A DNA stretch of 20,252 nucleotides from a virus. Numbering within the stretch: position 1 is the first letter of the stretch; every line of letters begins with the position of its first letter. The translations under genes were made by a program, and so were the position numbers. The stretch covers positions 1 to 20,252 of the IMG/VR virus record IMGVR_UViG_3300037153_000569; one strand, 5' to 3'. The notes beneath the pieces are model-generated. The model did not search any database. It was not told the origin of the DNA and was given only the letters and a program-made list of their open reading frames with translations. Shown here piece by piece: positions 1-17,760 of the stretch.

Positions 1-2
1 TC

Positions 3-3000
3 CGCACGGTGCTGGGAGTGCCGCTATTGCGGGAAGCTACTCCGATCGGCGTGATCATGCTGATGCGTCCCGATGCGCGGCCCTTCACAGACAAGCAGAT
101 CGAGTTGGCCACGACGTTCGCCGACCAAGCGGTTATAGCGATCGAGAACGTGCGCCTTTTCGACGAGGTGCAGGCGCGCACGCGCGAGCTTTCCGAGGCG
201 CTGGAGCAACAGACCGCGACCTCGGAGGTGCTCCAGGTCATTTCCAGCTCGCCGGGCGAGCTGGAGCCAGTGTTTCAGGCGATGCTGGAGAATGCGGTGC
301 GGATCTGCGAGGCCAAGTTCGGCGTCTTGTTCCGATCTGAAGGGGACGCACTTCGCGTAGTGGCGCTGCATAATGCACCGCCGTCGTATGCAGAAGAACG
401 GCGCCGCGTCCCACTAATCCGCCCCGATCCTGGAACGATGTTCGGGCGCGCATTGACGACCAAGCGGCCGGTCCAAATCGCCGACATTCGGGACGAGCCT
501 GATTACCCCGATTCACGCCAATCGGGCACCACCGGCGCGAAATTCGCCAAGCTAGCCGGCGCCCGAACCGTACTCGCCGTCCCTATGGTGAAGGACAGCG
601 ACCTCGTCGGCGCCATCCTTGTCTACCGTCAGGAGGTGCGTCCGTTCACAGACAAGCAGATCGACTTGGTGCAGAATTTCGCCGCGCAGGCTGTCATCGC
701 CATCGAGAACACGCGTCTACTCAACGAACTGCGTCAGCGCACCGACGATCTCACCGAGGCGCTGGATCAGCAGACAGCAACGTCTGAGGTGCTGCAGGTC
801 ATCTCAAGCTCGCCCGGCGAGCTCGCGCCGGTGTTCCAGGCGATGCTGGCAAACGCCGTTCGCATTTGCGACGCCAAATTCGGGGTTCTGCACCGGTACG
901 AGAACGGCTTTTTCTACCCAGTGGCTGCGCAAGATATCCCGGCGGCATTGGCGGAATTTCAACGGCAACGCGGGGCCATCGCGCCACTGGCGGGGAGCTC
1001 GCTCGATCAACTCATGCGTACCAAATCGGTAGTGCATTCTGCGGACGAAAAGGGAGCGCAGGTACCGGGGGCCCCCGCCCGATTGGCCGGGGCGCGCACG
1101 CTGGTCGGAGTGCCGATGCTCAAGGAGAATGAATTGGTTGGCGCGTTCATCATCTACCGCCAGGAAGTGCGTCCGTTTACCGACGAGCAGGTCGATCTGC
1201 TGCAGAACTTCGCCCGTCAAGCAGTGATCGCCATTGAGAACACGCGGCTGCTCAACGAGCTGCGCGAATCGCTGCAGCAGCAGACCGCGACCGCCGACGT
1301 GCTCAAGGTGATCAGCCGCTCGACCTTCGACCTGCAGGCCGTACTCGACACGCTAGTCGAGTCAGCAGCGCAACTTTGCCACGCCGAGCTGGCGGCCATC
1401 CGGCTTGCCAAGGACGGCTCCTACTATCACGCCGCAAGCTATGGCTTTACGCCCGGACAGAAAGAGTACATGCGGGCGCACGTGATGCCTCCGGGTCGCG
1501 GATCGGTGGTTGGACGGGTCATGCTCGAGGGTGTCGTCGTTCATGTGGCCGATGTTCTGGCCGACCCGGAATACATGATCTTCGACGTCCAGAGAGTGGA
1601 GAAGCAACGCACGGTGCTGGGCGTCCCGTTGCTGCGCGAGGGGGTCCCGATCGGCGTGATCGTGCTGATGCGCACGAAGGTGAGCCCGTTCACGCAGAAG
1701 CAGATCGAGCTTGTGACTACCTTCGCCGATCAGGCCGTGATTGCGATCGAGAACGTCCGGCTGTTCGACGAGGTGCAGGCGCGCACGCGCGAGCTCTCCG
1801 AGTCGCTGGAGCAGCAGACCGCAACCTCGGAAGTGCTCGGCGTTATCTCGAGCTCGCCGGGCGAGCTCGAGCCGGTGTTCCAGGCCATGCTGGCGAACGC
1901 AGTGCGGCTATGCGAAGCCAAGTTCGGCAATCTGGTGCTGTTCGAGGACGGGGAGCTCCGAATGGTTGCCCTCCACGGTGCCCCACGCCCGTACGAAGAC
2001 CTGCGGCGACGCGATCCGACCGTCCCTTTCTCAGCCGTCCTGGGCCGCCTGGTCGAAACAAAACAGATGATTCACGTCGCCGACCTCGCAGCAGAAGAGC
2101 GGTACGCAAACTCTGCTATCGTCAAGCTTGCCGGCGCGCGCTCATTTGTCGGCGTGCCGATGCTCAAGGAGGACAGGCTGATCGGCGCGATCGCCATTTA
2201 CCGCCAGGAGGTGCGCCCGTTCAGCGATAAGCAGATCGAGCTGCTCAGCAATTTCGCGCGCCAAGTCGTCATCGCCATCGAGAACACGCGCCTGCTCAAC
2301 GAGCTGCGCGAATCCTTGCAGCAGCAGACCGCCACCGCCGACGTGCTCAAGGTGATCAGCCGCTCGACCTTCGACCTGCAGACGGTGCTCGACACGCTCC
2401 TCGAGTCGGCTGCAAGACTGTGTGAGGCCGATATCGGATATGTTGGGCGTCCGAAAAGCGACGGTTTTTTCCGCGCGGAGGCGACCTACGGGTTTTCACC
2501 CGCCCTCAAGGAGATCGTGGAACACACGCCCTGGAAAGCCGAGCGGGAGAGTGCGATCGGTCGCGTGCTGCTTGAACGCGCGCCGATCCATATCCTCGAT
2601 GCTGGAACCGATCCGGAATACCGGATGGTCGAGATGCAAAAGATCGGTGGATACCACTCCATCCTCGGCGTGCCTCTCCTGCGAGAAGGAACGCCGACTG
2701 GCGTGCTTGTGCTGGCACGCCACGCTGTGCGTCCGTTCACCGCCCGCCAGATCGAGCTGCTCACAACCTTCGCCGATCAGGCAGTGATCGCGATTGAGAA
2801 CGTGCGGCTGTTCGACGAAATCCAGGATAAGAACCGCCAGCTGCAGGTCGCGAGCGAGAACAAGTCACAGTTCGTTTCTAGCATGAGCCACGAGCTGCGC
2901 ACGCCGCTCAATGCCATCATCGGGCTGACCGAGATGATGGTGACGAATGCGCCGCGCTTCGGTACGGAGAAGGCGCTGGAACCGTTGCAGCGTGTGAACC

Positions 3001-3554
3001 GCGCCGGCACCCACCTGCTCGGCCTCATCAACCAGGTGCTCGACCTCTCCAAGATCGAGGCCGGCAAGCTCGAGCTCAATCCGCAGACCGTGCAGCTCGC
3101 TCCGCTTATTGACGAGGTCATCGGCACCGCGCGCCAGCTCGCCGAGCAGAACAAGAATCGCCTCGTGGTCGAGGCCCAAGAGAACCTCGGTGCTCTGACC
3201 GTGGACCCGATGCGACTGCGGCAAATCCTGCTGAACTTGTTGAGCAATGCCTGCAAGTTCACCAAGGCGGGCGAGGTCAGGCTGCGGGCGCGCAAGGTGG
3301 CAGACGGACGCGACTGGATTGAGCTGTCGGTCTCCGACACCGGCATCGGCATGACGGTAGAGCAGCAGGCGAAGCTGTTCGAGGAGTTCAGCCAAGCCGA
3401 GGCGACGACCGCGCAGCGCTTCGGCGGCACCGGTCTCGGCCTCGCCATCACCCGCAAGCTCGCGCGCATGATGGGCGGCGACGTGACGGTGACGAGCGAG
3501 CCGGGCAAGGGTTCCGTCTTTACCCTGCGGCTGCCGGGCGGCGCGGCATCCTGA
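3..3554 (+). CDS. Multi-GAF sensor histidine kinase (5' end missing)
   Basis: The frame is open to the left edge (Arg-Thr precede the first GTG at 9), so the true start lies outside the window. With residues numbered from the GTG at 9, the protein has the end of one GAF domain (to about 50), then five full GAF domains (about 85-235, 275-425, 440-600, 635-775, 800-940), each followed by a short helical linker. A HisKA dimerisation domain follows, with the H-box [10 protein letters not shown] and phospho-acceptor His961. The HATPase_c domain has the N-box around Asn1080, G1 box DTGIG at 1110 and G2 box GGTGLGL at 1139. The protein ends about 30 residues later with no receiver domain. No membrane segment is visible, so the seen part is cytoplasmic. 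GAF domains usually sense small ligands or light through bound cofactors; the ligand here is unknown. Its partner is probably the convergent regulator at 3573-3946. Linkers between GAF domains are nearly identical to one another. Confidence 0.93.
144..2390 (+). repeat. Long in-frame repeats between GAF domains of the kinase gene
   Basis: Two sets of linker sequence recur inside the kinase gene. The block beginning at 144 ([17 protein letters not shown], then [10 protein letters not shown] and [14 protein letters not shown]) recurs from 1749, an offset of 1605 bp or 535 codons. The block beginning at 1241 ([20 protein letters not shown], then [10 protein letters not shown]) recurs from 2285, an offset of 1044 bp or 348 codons. 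Both matches are strong in DNA as well as protein for roughly 100-150 bp, while the GAF cores between them diverge. This is what duplication of whole GAF-plus-linker units, or gene conversion between linkers, would leave. Confidence 0.8.
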
Positions 3555-3572
3555 TCACCACGGTTTGAGCAT

Positions 3573-3946
3573 CTATTTCGGATGCGCAAGCACGCGCCGG
3601 ATGGTTGCGACCAGGCTGTCGAATTTGATCGGTTTGGCATCGAACTCGTCGCATCCCGTGGCAATGGCCTGCCCGCGCTCGCTCTCCAGCGCATGCGCGG
3701 ACATGCCGATGATTGGGATGTCGCGGATGTGCAGATCGTTCTTGAGGCGTCGCACGGGTTCCCAGCGGTCAACGACCGGCATTTCGAGGTCCATCAGAAT
3801 TACGTCCGGGTGCTCGGTCACAGCCAACTCGCAGCCTCTCTCGCTGTCCTCCGCCGCGAGAACCTCAAAACCGCCAAACAGCTCAAGCGTGTCTTGAGCA
3901 TGTAGATGTTGTCGTCGTTGTGTTCGACGTAGAGCAGTTTGGTCAC
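3573..3946 (-). pseudogene. Single-domain response regulator, frameshifted
   Basis: A CheY-like receiver domain is split over two frames. From a GTG at 3946, with a GGAAG ribosome-binding site just upstream, the frame reads VTKLLYVEHNDDNIYMLKTR and then fails. One frame over, it resumes as LELFGGFEVLAAEDSE and runs through DVILMDLEMP (phospho-acceptor Asp, codon at 3789-3791), the conserved switch region IPIIGMSAHA and the Lys of DAKPIKFD to a TAG at 3573-3575. Restoring one base near 3886-3888 would give a normal receiver of about 124 residues. The gene converges on the kinase with 18 bp between stops, so the two were probably a signalling pair. The acidic pair before the first loop is Glu-His rather than Glu-Asp. 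As read, only an ORF from 4052 spans the 3' part, and that product lacks a proper first strand. Either a real mutation or a base-call error explains it. Confidence 0.8.
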
Positions 3947-4194
3947 GAGCCGCTTCCATCCGTCTGGTGACTCTGGTTGCCTCGTCGGCGAGCGCGATCA
4001 GCTTATCAGGTCTTGTAAGGACGAGGGCCTTGGCAATTGCGGTCGCGGTCATCCTCAGGTCGGGCAGCCCGGGGGCGGGGCTTTTCTTGTTCCTGTGGAC
4101 AAATAAGGCGCGTCATCTACCTGTCGCACCAATCAGCATAATTGACCTGTGGTCTAGTCTAGCGGCCAAAGCCCTTCCGCTCGACCCGTTTGAG

Positions 4195-4220
4195 GCCCCG
4201 CGCTTGTCCCGGCGCGGGGC
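4195..4220. other. Perfect 9-bp GC-rich hairpin upstream of a small ORF
   Basis: GCCCCGCGC (4195-4203) and GCGCGGGGC (4212-4220) are exact inverted repeats around an 8-base loop. No T-run follows on either strand, so it is not a standard intrinsic terminator. It sits 21 bp before the start codon of the small ORF at 4242 and could act on that leader RNA, which is speculative. Confidence 0.45.
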
Positions 4221-4241
4221 TATCTCGCTCGGGGGGCCCCC

Positions 4242-4391
4242 ATGCCAGGAAACGCAGACAAGTCTAGGCAGTACCTGCGGTTGGCGGTTGAGAACTACAA
4301 ACGAGCGGGGGCCGCAGAGAGCCCGGAATTGAAAGCGAAATTCATGGAGATCGCGGCGCGTTACCGCGACCTCGCATTGCAACTAGTCTAG
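4242..4391 (+). CDS. Small basic protein of unknown function (49 aa)
   Basis: ATG at 4242 to TAG at 4389-4391 encodes a 49-residue, charged, probably all-helical protein (begins MPGNADKSRQYLRLAVENYK and ends RYRDLALQLV). Spaced Leu, Tyr and Ala residues suggest a two-helix hairpin. Short proteins of this look (a Tyr-Leu-Arg-Leu-Ala start, Arg-Tyr-Arg-Asp-Leu-Ala end) are frequent in Bradyrhizobium-type genomes as uncharacterised proteins; that link is from memory of the pattern only. The only ribosome-binding candidate is a run of six G at 4231-4236, immediately followed by five C (4237-4241), so the leader is very GC-rich. There is no signal peptide or membrane segment, and no function can be assigned. 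Confidence 0.6.
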   Translation: MPGNADKSRQYLRLAVENYKRAGAAESPELKAKFMEIAARYRDLALQLV

Positions 4392-5029
4392 ACGAGCCCG
4401 CACAGTGGGGCCCCAGCCTCGTTGAGTCCGCGAGGGCGACGACAAAACGGAAATAAAAGGCTCGTGATTTGCGGAGGGCTCGGACAACCGGGCGAGCAGT
4501 TCATTTCTTGGACGCAGCTCAGCGACGCCGCAATCCCCCAAGCGGCAAATCGTGCCGTTGGGTCCGCTTTAGCGCCGAAGGCAGAACCGGTGCCGGGGCC
4601 GAAGCGCCTTTCGCTAACTGACCTACGCGAAGCTGCGCGCCGGCGGCGGGACACCGCGCAGTGAGAATGGCGCGCCCGCCTGCCTGTACCAAATGATACG
4701 ACAATAATGATGACCGCTACCAGCGGCTACCGCGTAACCGTTGCGGGCGTGGTGTCTGTGGGTCGACTCCTTGCTGAACAACAGCCGGTCCCAGTGCGTC
4801 AGCGGGAACGCGTGGGGCCAATGCGGCCAGCATCTCGGTGGCCGCTCAGACGAACTTTCTCAGCCGACGTGGTGTCGCCGTAGGATGGAGGAGCCTAGGG
4901 CGACTACATGCTTGCGGACATCAGTGCAGCGCGAGAAGATGAACCAGGGCAACGCAGAGCCCTGATCGTCATGGCCGAATCGGGGCTGAATCGTGGCGAA
5001 GGCTTCGGGTTAGCAGAGAGGCGCAGCAT
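4392..5029. other. Gene-poor stretch between the small ORF and dinB
   Basis: I see no well-supported gene in these 638 bases. An open frame with a TTG start at 4422-4664 (plus, 80 codons) encodes a basic sequence ending RREAARRRR-like, with no recognisable domain and mixed codon use; it may be chance. A second open frame from ATG 4908 runs into dinB in another frame and has no close ribosome-binding site. An AT-richer patch at about 4690-4713 is followed by a small perfect hairpin (CCGCT-ACC-AGCGG, 4714-4726); this is the most promoter-like or regulatory-looking spot. I found no GTTC-N7-GTTC alphaproteobacterial LexA box upstream of dinB. Confidence 0.5.
5016..5021 (+). promoter_or_regulatory. 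Ribosome-binding site deciding the TTG start of dinB
   Basis: GAGAGG lies 8 bases before the TTG at 5030. The frame is open upstream to a TGA at 4940-4942 without any ATG or GTG, and the next in-frame ATG (within the catalytic HVDMDAF motif) is too late, so the TTG is the only sensible start. Confidence 0.6.
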
Positions 5030-6115
5030 TTGGAATTCCAACGGGGGTGTCGACCGAAGATCATTCACGTCGACATGGACGCCTTCTATGCGTCCGTGGA
5101 GCAGCGCGACAATCCAGGCCTTCGGGGCAAGCCTGTGGCTGTCGGCGGATCGCACGCGCGGGGTGTCGTCGCAGCTGCAAGCTATGAGGCGCGCAAGTTC
5201 GGCGTCCGGTCCGCGATGCCGTCCGTGACGGCGCGCCGAAAATGCCCAGACTTGATCTTCGTACAGCCGCGGTTCGAGGCTTACAAGGAGGTGTCGCTCC
5301 AAGTCCGTGCGATATTCGCCGAGTACACTGCGATTATCGAGCCGCTGTCGCTCGACGAAGCCTACCTCGATGTAACTGAGAATCTTCAAGGCATCACGTC
5401 GGCGACGGAGATCGCCGAACGGATCAAGGCGCAAATCCGCGCCGAGACGCAACTGACCGCGTCAGCGGGCGTTTCGTACAACAAGTTCCTCGCCAAGCTC
5501 GCCTCCGACTACCGCAAGCCCGACGGCCTCTTCGTTATCACCCCCGAGATGGGCCCGAGTTTTGTCGAGGCGCTCCCGGTGGAGCGGTTTCACGGTGTCG
5601 GACCGGCTACGGCCGCAAGAATGAAAGAGCTCGGCATCCTCACCGCGCTCGATCTAAGGGCCAAGGACGAAGCCTACTTGTTGAGGCATTTCGGGAAGGC
5701 GGGACGGCATTTCTACTGCATCTGCCGAGGCATCGATCAGCGGCCGGTTCTACCAAATCGGGTTCGCAAATCTGTCGGAGCGGAGAACACTTTTTCGCGG
5801 GACCTTACGAGCCTCGAAGACATGCGAGCCGAACTTGGTCCGCTGGTGGACAAGGTCTGGCACTATTGCCAGACCACCGGCGTGCGGGGACGAACGGTGA
5901 CCATTAAGGTCAAGTTCGCGGACTTCCAAATTATCACCCGAAGTCGATCGCGCGCCGCGCCGATTTCGGACTGCTCGACCTTGGCGTCAATCAGCGCCGA
6001 GTTACTCGCGGCCCAGTTTCCGATGCTCAAAGGAGTTCGTCTTCTCGGCGTGTCGCTCTCTTCGCTGTGCGCCGATGCAGCAGACATCGGTACGCAAATG
6101 ACTTTGGCGTTATAA
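5030..6115 (+). CDS. dinB: DNA polymerase IV (Y-family, DinB)
   Basis: This 361-residue protein has the full length of a Y-family translesion polymerase. It copies past damaged template bases at the replication fork without proofreading. Catalytic metal ligands are visible: Asp15 in HVDMDAFYASVE and Asp109-Glu110 in PLSLDEAYLD. The steric-gate aromatic Phe19-Tyr20, the SAGVSYNKFLAKLASDYRKP palm motif, the helix-hairpin-helix segment around FHGVGPATAARMKELG and the little-finger segment with TVTIKVKFADFQIITRSRS follow in order. The extreme C-terminus QMTLAL fits the beta-clamp binding consensus (Q-x-x-L-x-L), as in E. coli Pol IV, which ends QLVLGL. The start is TTG, supported by GAGAGG upstream. 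The gene stands alone; no LexA box was found. The prophage-like block begins 135 bp beyond its stop, on the other strand. Confidence 0.95.
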   Translation: MEFQRGCRPKIIHVDMDAFYASVEQRDNPGLRGKPVAVGGSHARGVVAAASYEARKFGVRSAMPSVTARRKCPDLIFVQPRFEAYKEVSLQVRAIFAEYTAIIEPLSLDEAYLDVTENLQGITSATEIAERIKAQIRAETQLTASAGVSYNKFLAKLASDYRKPDGLFVITPEMGPSFVEALPVERFHGVGPATAARMKELGILTALDLRAKDEAYLLRHFGKAGRHFYCICRGIDQRPVLPNRVRKSVGAENTFSRDLTSLEDMRAELGPLVDKVWHYCQTTGVRGRTVTIKVKFADFQIITRSRSRAAPISDCSTLASISAELLAAQFPMLKGVRLLGVSLSSLCADAADIGTQMTLAL

Positions 6116-14057: not shown

Positions 14058-14582
14058 CTAAGCCCCGAGATCGAACCCGGTATCGTTGCGCGGCTGATCG
14101 TCGGCCGGCAGCGCGGTCAGTGGGGCTTTCTTGCCGCCGCTCTTCCAGATTGGCGTCGGCTCCTCCACTGGCGGCGGAGGTGGCGCTGGAGGAGGAGCTG
14201 CCATCGGCTCTGCTTCCGCTTGCGCCCTCTCCTCTTCGAGCGCGGCTTGCTGCACCGGCGACAGCGGCACGGTGGGATTGCCCACGATCGGGACCTCGCC
14301 GCGTTCGATGTTCGCCGCAATACCAGCCGGCAGCATCGACACGAACGCGGCCATGACGCGTTCGATATCCGGGTAGTTGATCTGGCGCAGCGCCGCTTGC
14401 TGGAGCCCGGTCAGCTCGGAGAGGAGCGCAAGCGCGGTGCTGATCTCACCCGATTGCCAGCGGATGAAATGATCGAGCTTCACCGGCCTGATGGTGACCG
14501 CATCGATCTTCTGCTTGATGAACTCGACGGGGACGAACAGCTCGATGCGCCGTCCGCCGTCGCGCGTCCAGGTTTCGCTCAT
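14058..14582 (-). CDS. Tail assembly chaperone (gpE / Mu gp41-like)
   Basis: A 174-residue protein. Residues about 10-80 follow the phage tail assembly chaperone pattern (IELFVPVEFIKQKIDAVTIR, PVKLDHFIRW, LALLSELTGLQQAALRQINY, PDIERVMAAF). These proteins coat the tape measure during tail assembly and are absent from the finished tail. The remainder is disordered and Pro-rich (about 95-174, with a PPPAPPPPP run). The position between tube and tape measure is the classic one. Many relatives make an extended product by ribosomal frameshift; I found no convincing X-XXY-YYZ slippery site here, and the single frame already carries the long tail. It ends one base before the tape measure GTG. Confidence 0.8.
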   Translation of the reverse strand: MSETWTRDGGRRIELFVPVEFIKQKIDAVTIRPVKLDHFIRWQSGEISTALALLSELTGLQQAALRQINYPDIERVMAAFVSMLPAGIAANIERGEVPIVGNPTVPLSPVQQAALEEERAQAEAEPMAAPPPAPPPPPVEEPTPIWKSGGKKAPLTALPADDQPRNDTGFDLGA

Positions 14583-14594
14583 GCTTGCGCGCTA

Positions 14595-15140
14595 TCACCC
14601 GATCGGAACGGTCGGGATGCGCAGGATGCGGTTGACGTCGGCGTTGCGATCGACGCCGCCCATGCGACAGGTGTTGAGGAAGAAGTCCCAATAGTACATC
14701 TCGGCGGCATTGAAATAGAGCTCGTAGTGCGTGATGCCGCGGATCGCGTACTCCCAATGCTGGAGCGAGCCGCGCGTCCAGTTGGCCGGGTTGGCGCGCC
14801 CGAGGCGTCCGCCCATGATCGCCTTGGCTTCATGGGCAAGCCCGCTCCGGCGATCGCGGATCACGCCGTAGGCGGTGAAGACGTTCTGGCCCACCGACCA
14901 CGAGCCGATCATGGTCGCGACCTCCGGCGACCAGCCCGCGAGCACGAAGGTAGCTTCGAGCCGCTGCAGGATGGTGTCGATCTCGATGGTAAAGGGCGAG
15001 CCGCCGGCCTGGTGATCGACGAAATTCTCCTCGATATTCGGGAGCTTCAACTCCGAAATCGTGAGGTGTTGCGAGAGCGATGGATCGACATCGCCGCAAA
15101 AGATGTTGGCGGCCTCCATGATGAACACAGATTGGCTCAT
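14595..15140 (-). CDS. Major tail tube protein (gpFII-like)
   Basis: A 181-residue protein that fits the P2 FII tail tube family: MEAANIFCGDVDPSLSQHLT, ELKLPNIEENFVDHQAGGSP, the beta strands FTIEIDTILQRLEATFVLAG, an alternating beta segment and the C-terminal YELYFNAAEMYYWDFF with NRILRIPTVPIG. Hexamers of this protein stack to form the inner tube through which DNA passes and which the sheath drives out. The ATG at 15140 is preceded by AAGGAG, which overlaps the stop codon of the inserted endonuclease gene. It normally sits directly after the sheath gene; here the two are separated by 829 bp. Confidence 0.88.
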   Translation of the reverse strand: MSQSVFIMEAANIFCGDVDPSLSQHLTISELKLPNIEENFVDHQAGGSPFTIEIDTILQRLEATFVLAGWSPEVATMIGSWSVGQNVFTAYGVIRDRRSGLAHEAKAIMGGRLGRANPANWTRGSLQHWEYAIRGITHYELYFNAAEMYYWDFFLNTCRMGGVDRNADVNRILRIPTVPIG

Positions 15141-15151
15141 AGTGGCTCTCC

Positions 15152-15844
15152 TTATGCCGAGAGGGGAATCACGTTGGTCACATAAAGCCCGCCATTGCGA
15201 CCGCCGCGTTTTTCGATCAATCCGCGCTTGCGCAGGCGATAGATAAGCGTCGCCGCAAGCGGATCACACGATTTCAACGCGCTGTATTGGATTCCTGGAT
15301 TGGCGCGGATCCATTCGAGCAGCGCCGCTTGCCGTGGGGCTGCACGTTTCCAATGATCAGGATCGCGCCAAATCCTTTTTCTCGTCTCCGACTGCTTGGC
15401 GACATAATCCTTGTTCGCCCACATCGTGGCCCGTGCTCTTTGCCATTCCTGACTCGCAAGCCGGGCGGCAACGGCCGAGCGAACATGCGCTTTGCGTTCC
15501 TCTTTCGTCTTTTTGGCCCACGCCGCCCTTCTCGGCCCGTATCCTCGGCCACGATAACTGTTCCAAAGCTGCTGACCGCGCACCTGTATTTCCGCTTGTT
15601 CGCGCCTGTACGCTTCGTGATGCGAAAGCCTTTCCGCAATCATAAGCTCTTCGATTTGCGCGCCGTCGAGCCAAGCCGAGACGAGATGTTCATAGAGTGG
15701 CATCGGCACGCGCCCGACTAAACCGGCCGCCCGTTTGCGCACGATCCGCCGCACGATGCGCATATGGTCGAGATGGCGTTTTCCGCTGCCCTTGCCGATG
15801 TAACGGATCTCGCCATCGACGACGATGGCGTAGACGAAGGCCAT
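15152..15844 (-). CDS. GIY-YIG endonuclease, probably a free-standing homing enzyme
   Basis: A 230-residue protein. Residues about 2-95 are a GIY-YIG nuclease domain: FVYAIVVDGEIRYIGKGSGK gives the paired tyrosines and the Gly-Lys-Gly turn, with Arg and His just after, and the likely catalytic Glu lies in RREQAEIQV before LWN. Residues about 105-165 are basic and rich in Trp and Lys (KKTKEERKAHVRSAVAARLA, then WANKDYVAKQSETRKRIWRD), like the NUMOD3-type DNA-binding repeats of homing endonucleases. Residues about 175-225 look like a winged helix (WIRANPGIQYSALKSCDPLA, then YRLRKRGLIEKRGGRNGGLY). The ATG at 15844 has AGGAG in front. It stands alone between sheath and tube with its own hairpins upstream. 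Such enzymes cut an allele lacking the insert and so spread it. Confidence 0.85.
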   Translation of the reverse strand: MAFVYAIVVDGEIRYIGKGSGKRHLDHMRIVRRIVRKRAAGLVGRVPMPLYEHLVSAWLDGAQIEELMIAERLSHHEAYRREQAEIQVRGQQLWNSYRGRGYGPRRAAWAKKTKEERKAHVRSAVAARLASQEWQRARATMWANKDYVAKQSETRKRIWRDPDHWKRAAPRQAALLEWIRANPGIQYSALKSCDPLAATLIYRLRKRGLIEKRGGRNGGLYVTNVIPLSA

Positions 15845-15863
15845 GGCGGACTCCTGACGAAAT

Positions 15864-15881
15864 GGCCGCCCGCAGGCGGCC
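15864..15881 (-). promoter_or_regulatory. Hairpin just upstream of the endonuclease start
   Basis: GGCCGCC (15864-15870) and GGCGGCC (15875-15881) form a perfect 7-bp stem with a 4-base loop, 20 bp before the ATG at 15844 and between it and a T-run at 15885-15890. It could restrict translation or mark the end of the insert. It shares the GGCCGCC core with the larger inverted repeat at 15911-15958, so the arms could also pair with each other. Confidence 0.5.
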
Positions 15882-15884
15882 AAC

Positions 15885-15958
15885 AAAAAACCCGGCATCC
15901 GGACCAAAGTGGGCCGCCCGCCAGTCCGACTGGATTTCCGGATCTCCTCGGGCGGCCC
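15885..15958 (-). terminator. Terminator-like inverted repeat between sheath and endonuclease genes
   Basis: On the minus strand, after the sheath TAA (15970-15972), come a 9-bp perfect stem (arms 15950-15958 and 15911-15919) that encloses a smaller hairpin (15921-15933), then a weak 4-bp stem (15892-15902), then six Ts (15885-15890). The layout is like an intrinsic terminator, but the strong stem is 20 bp from the T-run. It may partly insulate the endonuclease gene from the tail operon, or leave some read-through to the tube gene. Confidence 0.45.
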
Positions 15959-15969
15959 TCGGCTCTCGC

Positions 15970-17760
15970 TTATGCCGCGAGGTTGAGCGTGCGTTCGAGG
16001 TTCTGCACCATGGCGTCGATGGCCGGCCGATAGCGCGCCGACAAGGTCGTGATCTTGCGCAGGACCGGCGGTTCCTCGGCCGCGAAGGCCACGGTCAGAT
16101 GACCGAGGCGAATTTGCTCCGCGCTGTTGTAGGAGCCTTTGAACTCGACCTTGAACCCGAGGATCTGGTCGAGCGCCTGCAAATCGCGCAGGAAGAATTT
16201 GATGGTGTTGATGATCGCCTGCACGGTGTGGCCGGTGATGTTCTGCCGGCCGAGGTAGACCCGCAGCGCGCGCAACAGCGACAGGTGGATGTAATCGCGC
16301 CCGCGCATGACGTTGTAGAACCGCCACAGCTCGGACTCGCCGAGGTTGTCAGTGGCGATCAGCACGAAGCCGCCGGATGCGATCGCAAAATCGCTGCCGG
16401 TCTCGCCGCGGACCAGGATGCCGATGTTGTTGCGCAAGAGCTGCTGGCCCTCGTTGGCATCGTCGACGATCGAGAAGCCGATCGAGCGCGCGGGCCCGAT
16501 GATGCCCTGCACCGGCTGGTTGGCCGCGGAGTGGAAGGGATAGCCGGTCTCGTGATCGCGACGGACCAGGATACCGGCCGCGCGCGGGGCGAGCGGTCGC
16601 ACGACGATGTTGCCGGTGTCGGGGTCCATCACCTTGACGCCGCCGGACAGGCCAATGATGCGATCCGATTGGATCGTCTCGCGCCAATCCTCGTCATCGA
16701 TCTCGCTGGTGCCGGCGGACTCGACGATCGCGTGCGCGACGAGCTGGTTGAGAACGGCGGGCAGCATGGCGCAGACCGGGTTTGCACCTTCGGACAACTC
16801 TGCCGTGAGCGTCGCCCGGACGGCGGCGGGCGGCGCAGCGATAGCCACATCCGGCGCGCTCTCGTACCCGGAGCCCGGAGTATCGAGGAAAATCTCATCC
16901 TGGCCGATGCGGCCGAGCGAGTTGGCGACGGCGTGTCCGGTCGCCTGCACCGTGGCGGCGCCGCCGCCGGAGAACGTCACCGCGACGGTCACGCCCGGCT
17001 GGTAGCCGCTGCCCTCGACATCGGAGAGGACCTGCGTCACCGCACCCCCGGAAATCGCCGTGTGCGCGGTCGCGGTCACCGGCGCCGGCGGCTCCGGCAA
17101 TGTGACCATGGGCGGCGTGCCCTCGTCGTACCAGGCGCCATAGGTATCGAGCACAAGCTGGCTTTGATTGATGTCGCCGCTCACATCGGCAACGGCGTGT
17201 CCGGTCGCTTGCACGATGGTCTCGCTCGTGCCGCCGCCCGAGAACGTCATCTCGTAGCGCGTGCCCGGCGCATAGCCCTTGCCGACCGTGCCGATGTGCA
17301 GCTCGCTCACCGAGTTCGCGAGCTGGCCGGTATAGCCGGGCGCGCAGATGATCCGCGGCGTGATGGCGAGGAGCTGCGGCGATTTGAGGAACGCCCACAC
17401 CCCGGTTTGATCGGTGCTCGACCCCATGATGCGCGCGATCGTCTCTTGCAGCTTCAACGCCGGGTCCGGGTTGGTGCCGGATGCGGTGCGCACGATCACG
17501 AGCTTGGCCGCGACCTCCATCTCCCCGAGCTGCGCGTTGATGCCGTCGATCGCATCTTTCAGGTAGCCGGAGTCACCGATGTAATCGATGAGCGTGGTGT
17601 CGTTGGAGTAGACCTTGACCGGCGTGTTGAGCGGAAAGAACTCCGTATTCGCCTGGTCGGCTGGCCCGATGAGGCCAATGGTGGACAGGTCGGCACCGAT
17701 GACCGGCGTCGGCTCTTCCTCGACTTTGCGGAAGACCAGACCAAAAATCGGATCGGCCAT
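15970..17760 (-). CDS. Tail sheath protein (gpFI-like) with a two-repeat insertion
   Basis: A 596-residue contractile tail sheath subunit. Family landmarks: the N-terminal FGLVFRKVEEEPTPVIGADL, PRIICAPGYTGQ (about 135-146), NPVCAMLPAVLNQLVAHAIV (about 327-346), and the C-terminal core with SELWRFYNVMRGRDYIHLSL, FFLRDLQALDQILGFKVEFK and a terminal helix. Known relatives run about 390-500 residues; the extra length is residues about 150-325, holding two ~88-residue tandem repeats. The ATG at 17760 has AAGGAG upstream, which outweighs the in-frame upstream start at 17808. Sheath rings contract and drive the tube through the cell envelope. It should be followed directly by the tube gene but is separated from it by the endonuclease gene. 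Confidence 0.9.
   Translation of the reverse strand: MADPIFGLVFRKVEEEPTPVIGADLSTIGLIGPADQANTEFFPLNTPVKVYSNDTTLIDYIGDSGYLKDAIDGINAQLGEMEVAAKLVIVRTASGTNPDPALKLQETIARIMGSSTDQTGVWAFLKSPQLLAITPRIICAPGYTGQLANSVSELHIGTVGKGYAPGTRYEMTFSGGGTSETIVQATGHAVADVSGDINQSQLVLDTYGAWYDEGTPPMVTLPEPPAPVTATAHTAISGGAVTQVLSDVEGSGYQPGVTVAVTFSGGGAATVQATGHAVANSLGRIGQDEIFLDTPGSGYESAPDVAIAAPPAAVRATLTAELSEGANPVCAMLPAVLNQLVAHAIVESAGTSEIDDEDWRETIQSDRIIGLSGGVKVMDPDTGNIVVRPLAPRAAGILVRRDHETGYPFHSAANQPVQGIIGPARSIGFSIVDDANEGQQLLRNNIGILVRGETGSDFAIASGGFVLIATDNLGESELWRFYNVMRGRDYIHLSLLRALRVYLGRQNITGHTVQAIINTIKFFLRDLQALDQILGFKVEFKGSYNSAEQIRLGHLTVAFAAEEPPVLRKITTLSARYRPAIDAMVQNLERTLNLAA
16801..17292 (-). repeat. Tandem ~88-codon repeat inside the sheath gene
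   Basis: Two units (about residues 157-244 and 245-320) share the pattern Gly-x-Gly-Tyr-x-Pro-Gly, TFSGGG, VQATGHAVA, a short loop, LDT and a closing PPAPV- or PPAAV-type segment. A 17-base DNA stretch at 16928-16944 recurs at 17192-17208, an offset of 264 bp. The repeats resemble the Gly-Tyr-Pro beta repeats found in other phage virion proteins. Confidence 0.75.

Follow-up and report, generated by a model that had tools for sequence, protein, structure and literature searches.

A LEM-3-like GIY-YIG gene, probably of the free-standing homing type, separating the tail sheath and tail tube genes of a virus

Introduction

Why should a complete gene for a GIY-YIG nuclease stand between the tail sheath and tail tube genes of a virus? 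The question was raised by a virus record of 20,252 bases (hereafter the window). A reading of the window made from the sequence alone (hereafter the sequence-only reading) proposed that the gene has the layout of a free-standing homing endonuclease. Such genes, lying between conserved genes and encoding GIY-YIG proteins, are established in phage T4 (PMC2988022), and phages commonly have nuclease genes beside their essential genes (PMC10448857). In phage Adele and some Pakpunavirus, a gene of the GIY-YIG type has been described at the sheath/tube junction (PMC12846349). A survey of the superfamily in 2006 set the LEM-3 relatives (COG3680) apart from the homing enzymes; from Alphaproteobacteria it recorded no homing enzyme with a GIY-YIG domain (PMC1564403).

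Results and Discussion

The gene and its setting in the tail operon

The GIY-YIG gene (15152..15844, minus strand) starts with ATG at 15844 and runs to 15152 as an open reading frame of 230 amino acids plus stop, without an internal stop. Its upstream neighbour is an intact tail sheath gene (15970..17760, minus strand; 596 amino acids; phrog_23 with E=5e-45, PF17482), and its downstream neighbour is an intact tail tube gene (14595..15140, minus strand; 181 amino acids; PF04985 with E=4.9e-18). A complete gene therefore separates sheath and tube, as the sequence-only reading had stated. That reading had also assigned the gene a ribosome-binding site of its own and an overlap of its stop with the ribosome-binding site of the tube gene, and both details were confirmed. 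The sequence AGGAG (15851..15855, minus strand) precedes the endonuclease ATG by 6 nt. The stop codon TAA (15154-15152) overlaps the tube ribosome-binding site AAGGAG (15148..15153, minus strand), and 7 nt separate that site from the ATG of the tube gene at 15140. An Rfam scan of 14400-16400 found no intron family. The gene thus occupies an intergenic site between conserved genes, both of which are whole, with no intron or intein.

Two other features of the window were noted. The sheath protein has a long insert at about residues 150-325 (16700-17300, minus strand) relative to those of Microcystis phage Mae-JY30 and Aurantimonas phage AmM-1. The insert contains two similar glycine-rich stretches (TFSGGG...VQATGHAVA) and matches virion-protein profiles such as phrog_701. 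The left third of the window (1-6115) holds bacterial-looking genes, including a response-regulator-type reading frame, DNA polymerase IV and, as called by eye, a multi-GAF sensor histidine kinase; the record therefore probably represents a prophage end with host DNA.

Domains, residues and predicted fold

The sole Pfam family above its cut-off for the 230-residue protein was PF22945, the LEM-3-like GIY-YIG family (E=1.9e-9; 38.1 bits against a curated cut-off of 27), which upholds the GIY-YIG identity. This family was also matched by 11 of 17 homologues at E<=0.01. In the alignment of the 17 homologues, the catalytic-type residues Y5, Y15, R23, H27, E82 and N95 are invariant or nearly so. Their absence would have spoken against the sequence-only reading; instead, the nuclease domain is intact in its catalytic residues, as is expected of a homing endonuclease.

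An AlphaFold model begins with a GIY-YIG fold, continues as a linker of helices and closes with a winged helix at the C-terminus (mean pLDDT 83, about 94 for residues 1-90). Since the pTM was 0.46, the placement of the domains relative to one another is uncertain. The LEM-3-like catalytic domain spans residues 1-97 (15554..15844, minus strand), as judged from the match to PF22945 residues 12-119, the alignment and the model. The linker, defined from the model, comprises residues 98-165 (15350..15553, minus strand) and is basic and helical, with loose W-x-D/N-P motifs. The winged helix comprises residues 166-230 (15155..15349, minus strand) and is supported by the model and by a winged-helix HMM (4.5e-9). 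Foldseek matches were weak, with a best E of about 0.1, yet of the kinds to be expected: T4 EndoII and Hpy188I were found, and MarR-type repressors (MarR/wHTH-like) for the winged helix. The winged helix of the sequence-only reading is thus retained as a prediction. The NUMOD-like repeats of that reading were not; neither the protein nor 16 homologues matched any NUMOD family, and a basic helical linker is found instead. Nor did the protein or the 16 homologues match PF01541, the classical GIY-YIG model. With both PF01541 and the NUMOD modules missing, an assignment to the I-TevI/Seg class was rejected.

It might be supposed that the gene once encoded a homing endonuclease and has since become inactive. 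The copy in the window is the longest branch of its group (0.94), and family remnants do occur in relatives (L164 and L178; loci are given by such numbers where needed). Against this, the full-length frame, the complete set of catalytic-type residues, the ribosome-binding site of its own and the confident fold make an inactive gene improbable.

Distribution at the sheath/tube junction

Relatives were reached through sheath and tube alignments with Mae-JY30 and AmM-1, and then through alignments of the nuclease family. The 140 loci with both sheath and tube genes represented 101 distinct junctions (a tube match in L002 was rejected as spurious). At 97 of these the junction was empty, with 11-121 nt from sheath stop to tube start; the other four (the window, L032, L108 and L048) measured 709-829 nt and contained an intact homologue. 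All of 16 further prophage loci, in genomes of the order of Hyphomicrobium, were empty. When a family HMM was run over 143 loci of related tail regions (1.28 Mb), only three filled junctions matched, and none elsewhere. Two further sheath/tube cases, beyond the 101 junctions, were L157 (with L156) and L178. In L178 a truncated GIY-YIG gene of 140 amino acids adjoins an HNH endonuclease gene on the opposite strand. The HNH gene (L178:1957-2631, minus strand; phrog_374, E=8.5e-77) lies between the truncated gene and the tube gene.

Single-sequence protein searches of viral contigs, genomes, phages, plasmids and the PDB gave no match. In about 680 alphaproteobacterial genomes (385 chosen by class and 297 by order) the only match, L169, was distant and lay in a context of phage structural genes. 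Filled and empty phages co-occur in metagenomes 3300027870 and 3300048833.

These counts bear on the simplest alternative, that the gene is a tail-assembly gene of the sheath/tube operon that was lost in most lineages, a reading that its common orientation and compact fit within the operon might suggest. Conservation at this place in all relatives, which would have contradicted the sequence-only reading, was not seen: the gene is missing at 97 of the 101 distinct junctions and at each of the 16 prophage loci, very close relatives included. In addition, it retains nuclease catalytic residues and its homologues lie at other junctions. A tail-assembly function is refuted in practice.

Filled and empty sites in close relatives

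In a tree of sheath plus tube (103 rows), the five carriers were scattered and required four state changes. Filled L108 and empty L126 are 98% identical in sheath plus tube protein, and filled L032 stands beside empty L050. Presence and absence are therefore polymorphic at one site among close relatives, as expected for a homing endonuclease gene. Some of the scatter might, in principle, be due to loss of the gene.

The sequence-only reading had proposed comparison with insert-free relatives as the way to define the exact ends of the insert, and this comparison was made. Between filled phages and their closest empty relatives the flanks are collinear, with 82-93% DNA identity. Homology breaks at the sheath stop codon (7246 in L108, 2586 in L032) and, in the clearest pairs (L108/L120 and L032/L041), resumes 13-16 nt into the tube gene (7983 and 3316, respectively). 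A conserved block early in the tube protein (around NLFCGDHDP) adjoins the insertion site and is a candidate target, solely as conserved protein sequence beside the site; no particular synonymous constraint was evident there. Raised divergence in the first 10 codons of the L108 tube gene was considered as a sign of target immunity and rejected, since the empty pair L120/L126 also differs there (12/30).

The gene also has a history independent of its host phage. Between L032 and L108, identity is 89% for the sheath and 79% for the tube, and 52% for the endonuclease. The GC3 of the five intact genes is below that of the flanks (52-77%, compared with 83-88% for sheath and 72-86% for tube). A single clade of all sheath/tube copies was rejected in the GIY-domain tree (117 columns; AU p=0.007), and members of the family appear to have switched sites, as described below.

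A second site and the C-terminal module

A second place for homologues is the interval from a baseplate wedge gene (phrog_203) to a tail fibre gene, which they occupy in 11 distinct contexts (L147, L149, L150, L151, L153, L155, L158, L163, L170-174, L175 and L176; the sequences of L151 and L163 break off short of the fibre gene). Some homologues lie at sites other than these two. The site frequencies of the family are biased, as sheath/tube copies served to start the search. L158 carries two different family members (3150-3764 and 4995-5627); one immediately precedes the baseplate wedge gene, and the other stands between it and the fibre gene.

In the GIY-domain tree, few branches of which are strongly supported, the genes of the window, L032, L108 and L048 cluster inside the wedge/fibre genes with support of 85/85, which is not decisive. 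The C-terminal winged helix is common to these four alone, all of which are at sheath/tube: the HMM built from L032, L108 and L048 detected the window protein and no other family member. The C-terminal module therefore goes with the sheath/tube site in that group. In L157 the site is occupied without the C-terminal winged helix.

It would be possible, with chances that we put at about even, that LEM-3-like GIY-YIG nucleases form an unrecognised phage homing lineage specialised on contractile-tail junctions, switching between wedge/fibre and sheath/tube by swaps of the C-terminal DNA-binding module.

The most probable explanation

In all likelihood, the gene is free-standing (intronless) and encodes a homing endonuclease that belongs to the LEM-3-like GIY-YIG branch. 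The interpretation given in the sequence-only reading is supported by the near-absence of the gene at other sheath/tube junctions, its retained catalytic residues, the collinear flanks of differing close relatives, the use of other junctions and the non-monophyly of the sheath/tube copies. At this place the gene is missing from almost all relatives, and the family has arrived repeatedly in two tail gaps; the gene is therefore probably mobile and selfish, and not a component of the tail. Its identity and movement are well supported by comparison of sequences; that the 230-residue protein cuts DNA, at a particular target and with homing as the outcome, we infer.

In the proposed mechanism, co-infection or superinfection would bring the protein together with a phage without the gene. 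The winged helix and basic linker would guide a cut at a conserved sequence in or near the sheath and tube genes, and repair by homologous recombination from the carrier would copy the gene and flanking DNA into the gap. The exact position between two essential genes, together with reuse of the tube ribosome-binding site, would allow the operon to keep working.

A point against homing is the branch itself, which is LEM-3/COG3680 and lies outside the I-TevI/NUMOD class of known GIY-YIG homing enzymes; the action of its animal members on branched DNA also counts against it. The animal nucleases LEM-3/ANKLE1 act in repair or on branched DNA (PMC3285610, PMC7610144), and the low GC3 would fit any recently acquired gene. 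The gene might thus encode an accessory nuclease of the phage whose role is other than homing, such as resolving branched DNA or cutting host or rival DNA, moved by ordinary recombination as a moron. However, the same two junctions were reached repeatedly with an exact fit to the gap, the C-terminal domain is tied to the site, and decayed remnants lie at the same sites, all of which one would expect of a site-specific element but not of morons placed at random. We therefore consider an accessory role unlikely.

Comparison with known systems

The sheath/tube layout is already known, since Pakpunavirus (Pseudomonas phages Adele, JG004 and PAK_P4; PMC12846349) has an I-TevI-type gene at the same junction, where it is rare in its genus. 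In JG004 the stop of the GIY-YIG gene also runs into the tube ribosome-binding site (TAAGGAG), as in the window. However, these are different phages with a different sheath family (DUF3383), and the JG004 protein is of I-TevI type (PF01541, NUMOD1 and the I-TevI DNA-binding domain), with no detectable profile similarity to the family of the window. The layout therefore arose independently here, in a different branch.

T4 SegA-SegG resemble the gene of the window in being free-standing GIY-YIG genes between conserved genes, as expected of intronless homing, and in sharing, in nearly all cases, the orientation of their neighbours (PMC2988022). The window protein, whose activity is a prediction, differs in matching neither PF01541 nor NUMOD and in its insertion site. 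With LEM-3/ANKLE1 (COG3680, PF22945; PMC1564403, PMC3285610, PMC7610144) it has the catalytic domain family in common. Unlike them, it has no ankyrin or LEM domain, its catalytic domain is N-terminal and followed by the basic linker and winged helix, and its gene is a phage gene placed like a homing gene. The T5orf172 and IPA-HNH genes and HEG-islands of ICP1-like phages likewise adjoin essential structural genes, tail operons included (PMC10448857), but belong to different nuclease families, and no bracketing of the HEG-island kind was seen in the window.

A LEM-3-like phage homing gene was not described in the literature searched, which took in only a minority of subscription papers; within it, a LEM-3-like lineage with a site-linked C-terminal domain seems to be an undescribed variant. 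The likely homing toolkit of phages would thereby gain a GIY-YIG branch that is familiar from repair enzymes of animals. One tail junction holds three nuclease types across phages: a LEM-3-like GIY-YIG gene, an I-TevI-type GIY-YIG gene, and an HNH gene beside a GIY-YIG remnant. The close filled and empty pairs, together with the site-linked domain, allow direct tests of how a target is chosen and how sites are switched. Genes of this kind can bias the survival of tail modules when phages recombine.

The spacer upstream of the gene

A spacer of about 115 nt (15856..15969, minus strand) extends from the sheath stop to the endonuclease ribosome-binding site and contains two strong hairpins (fold z=-2.2), the second of which is at 15882-15863. 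Among empty relatives, a stem of at least 6 pairs was present in 14 of 31 distinct spacers of at least 40 nt. Since similar hairpins occur in many long-spacer empty relatives, the gene was probably inserted between an old spacer and the tube ribosome-binding site, and the window probably retains the spacer inherited with the sheath/tube junction. The endonuclease genes of L032 and L108 start 4-6 nt past the sheath stop. In the tail operon, the hairpins shared with the empty relatives perhaps act as an attenuator or affect RNA stability.
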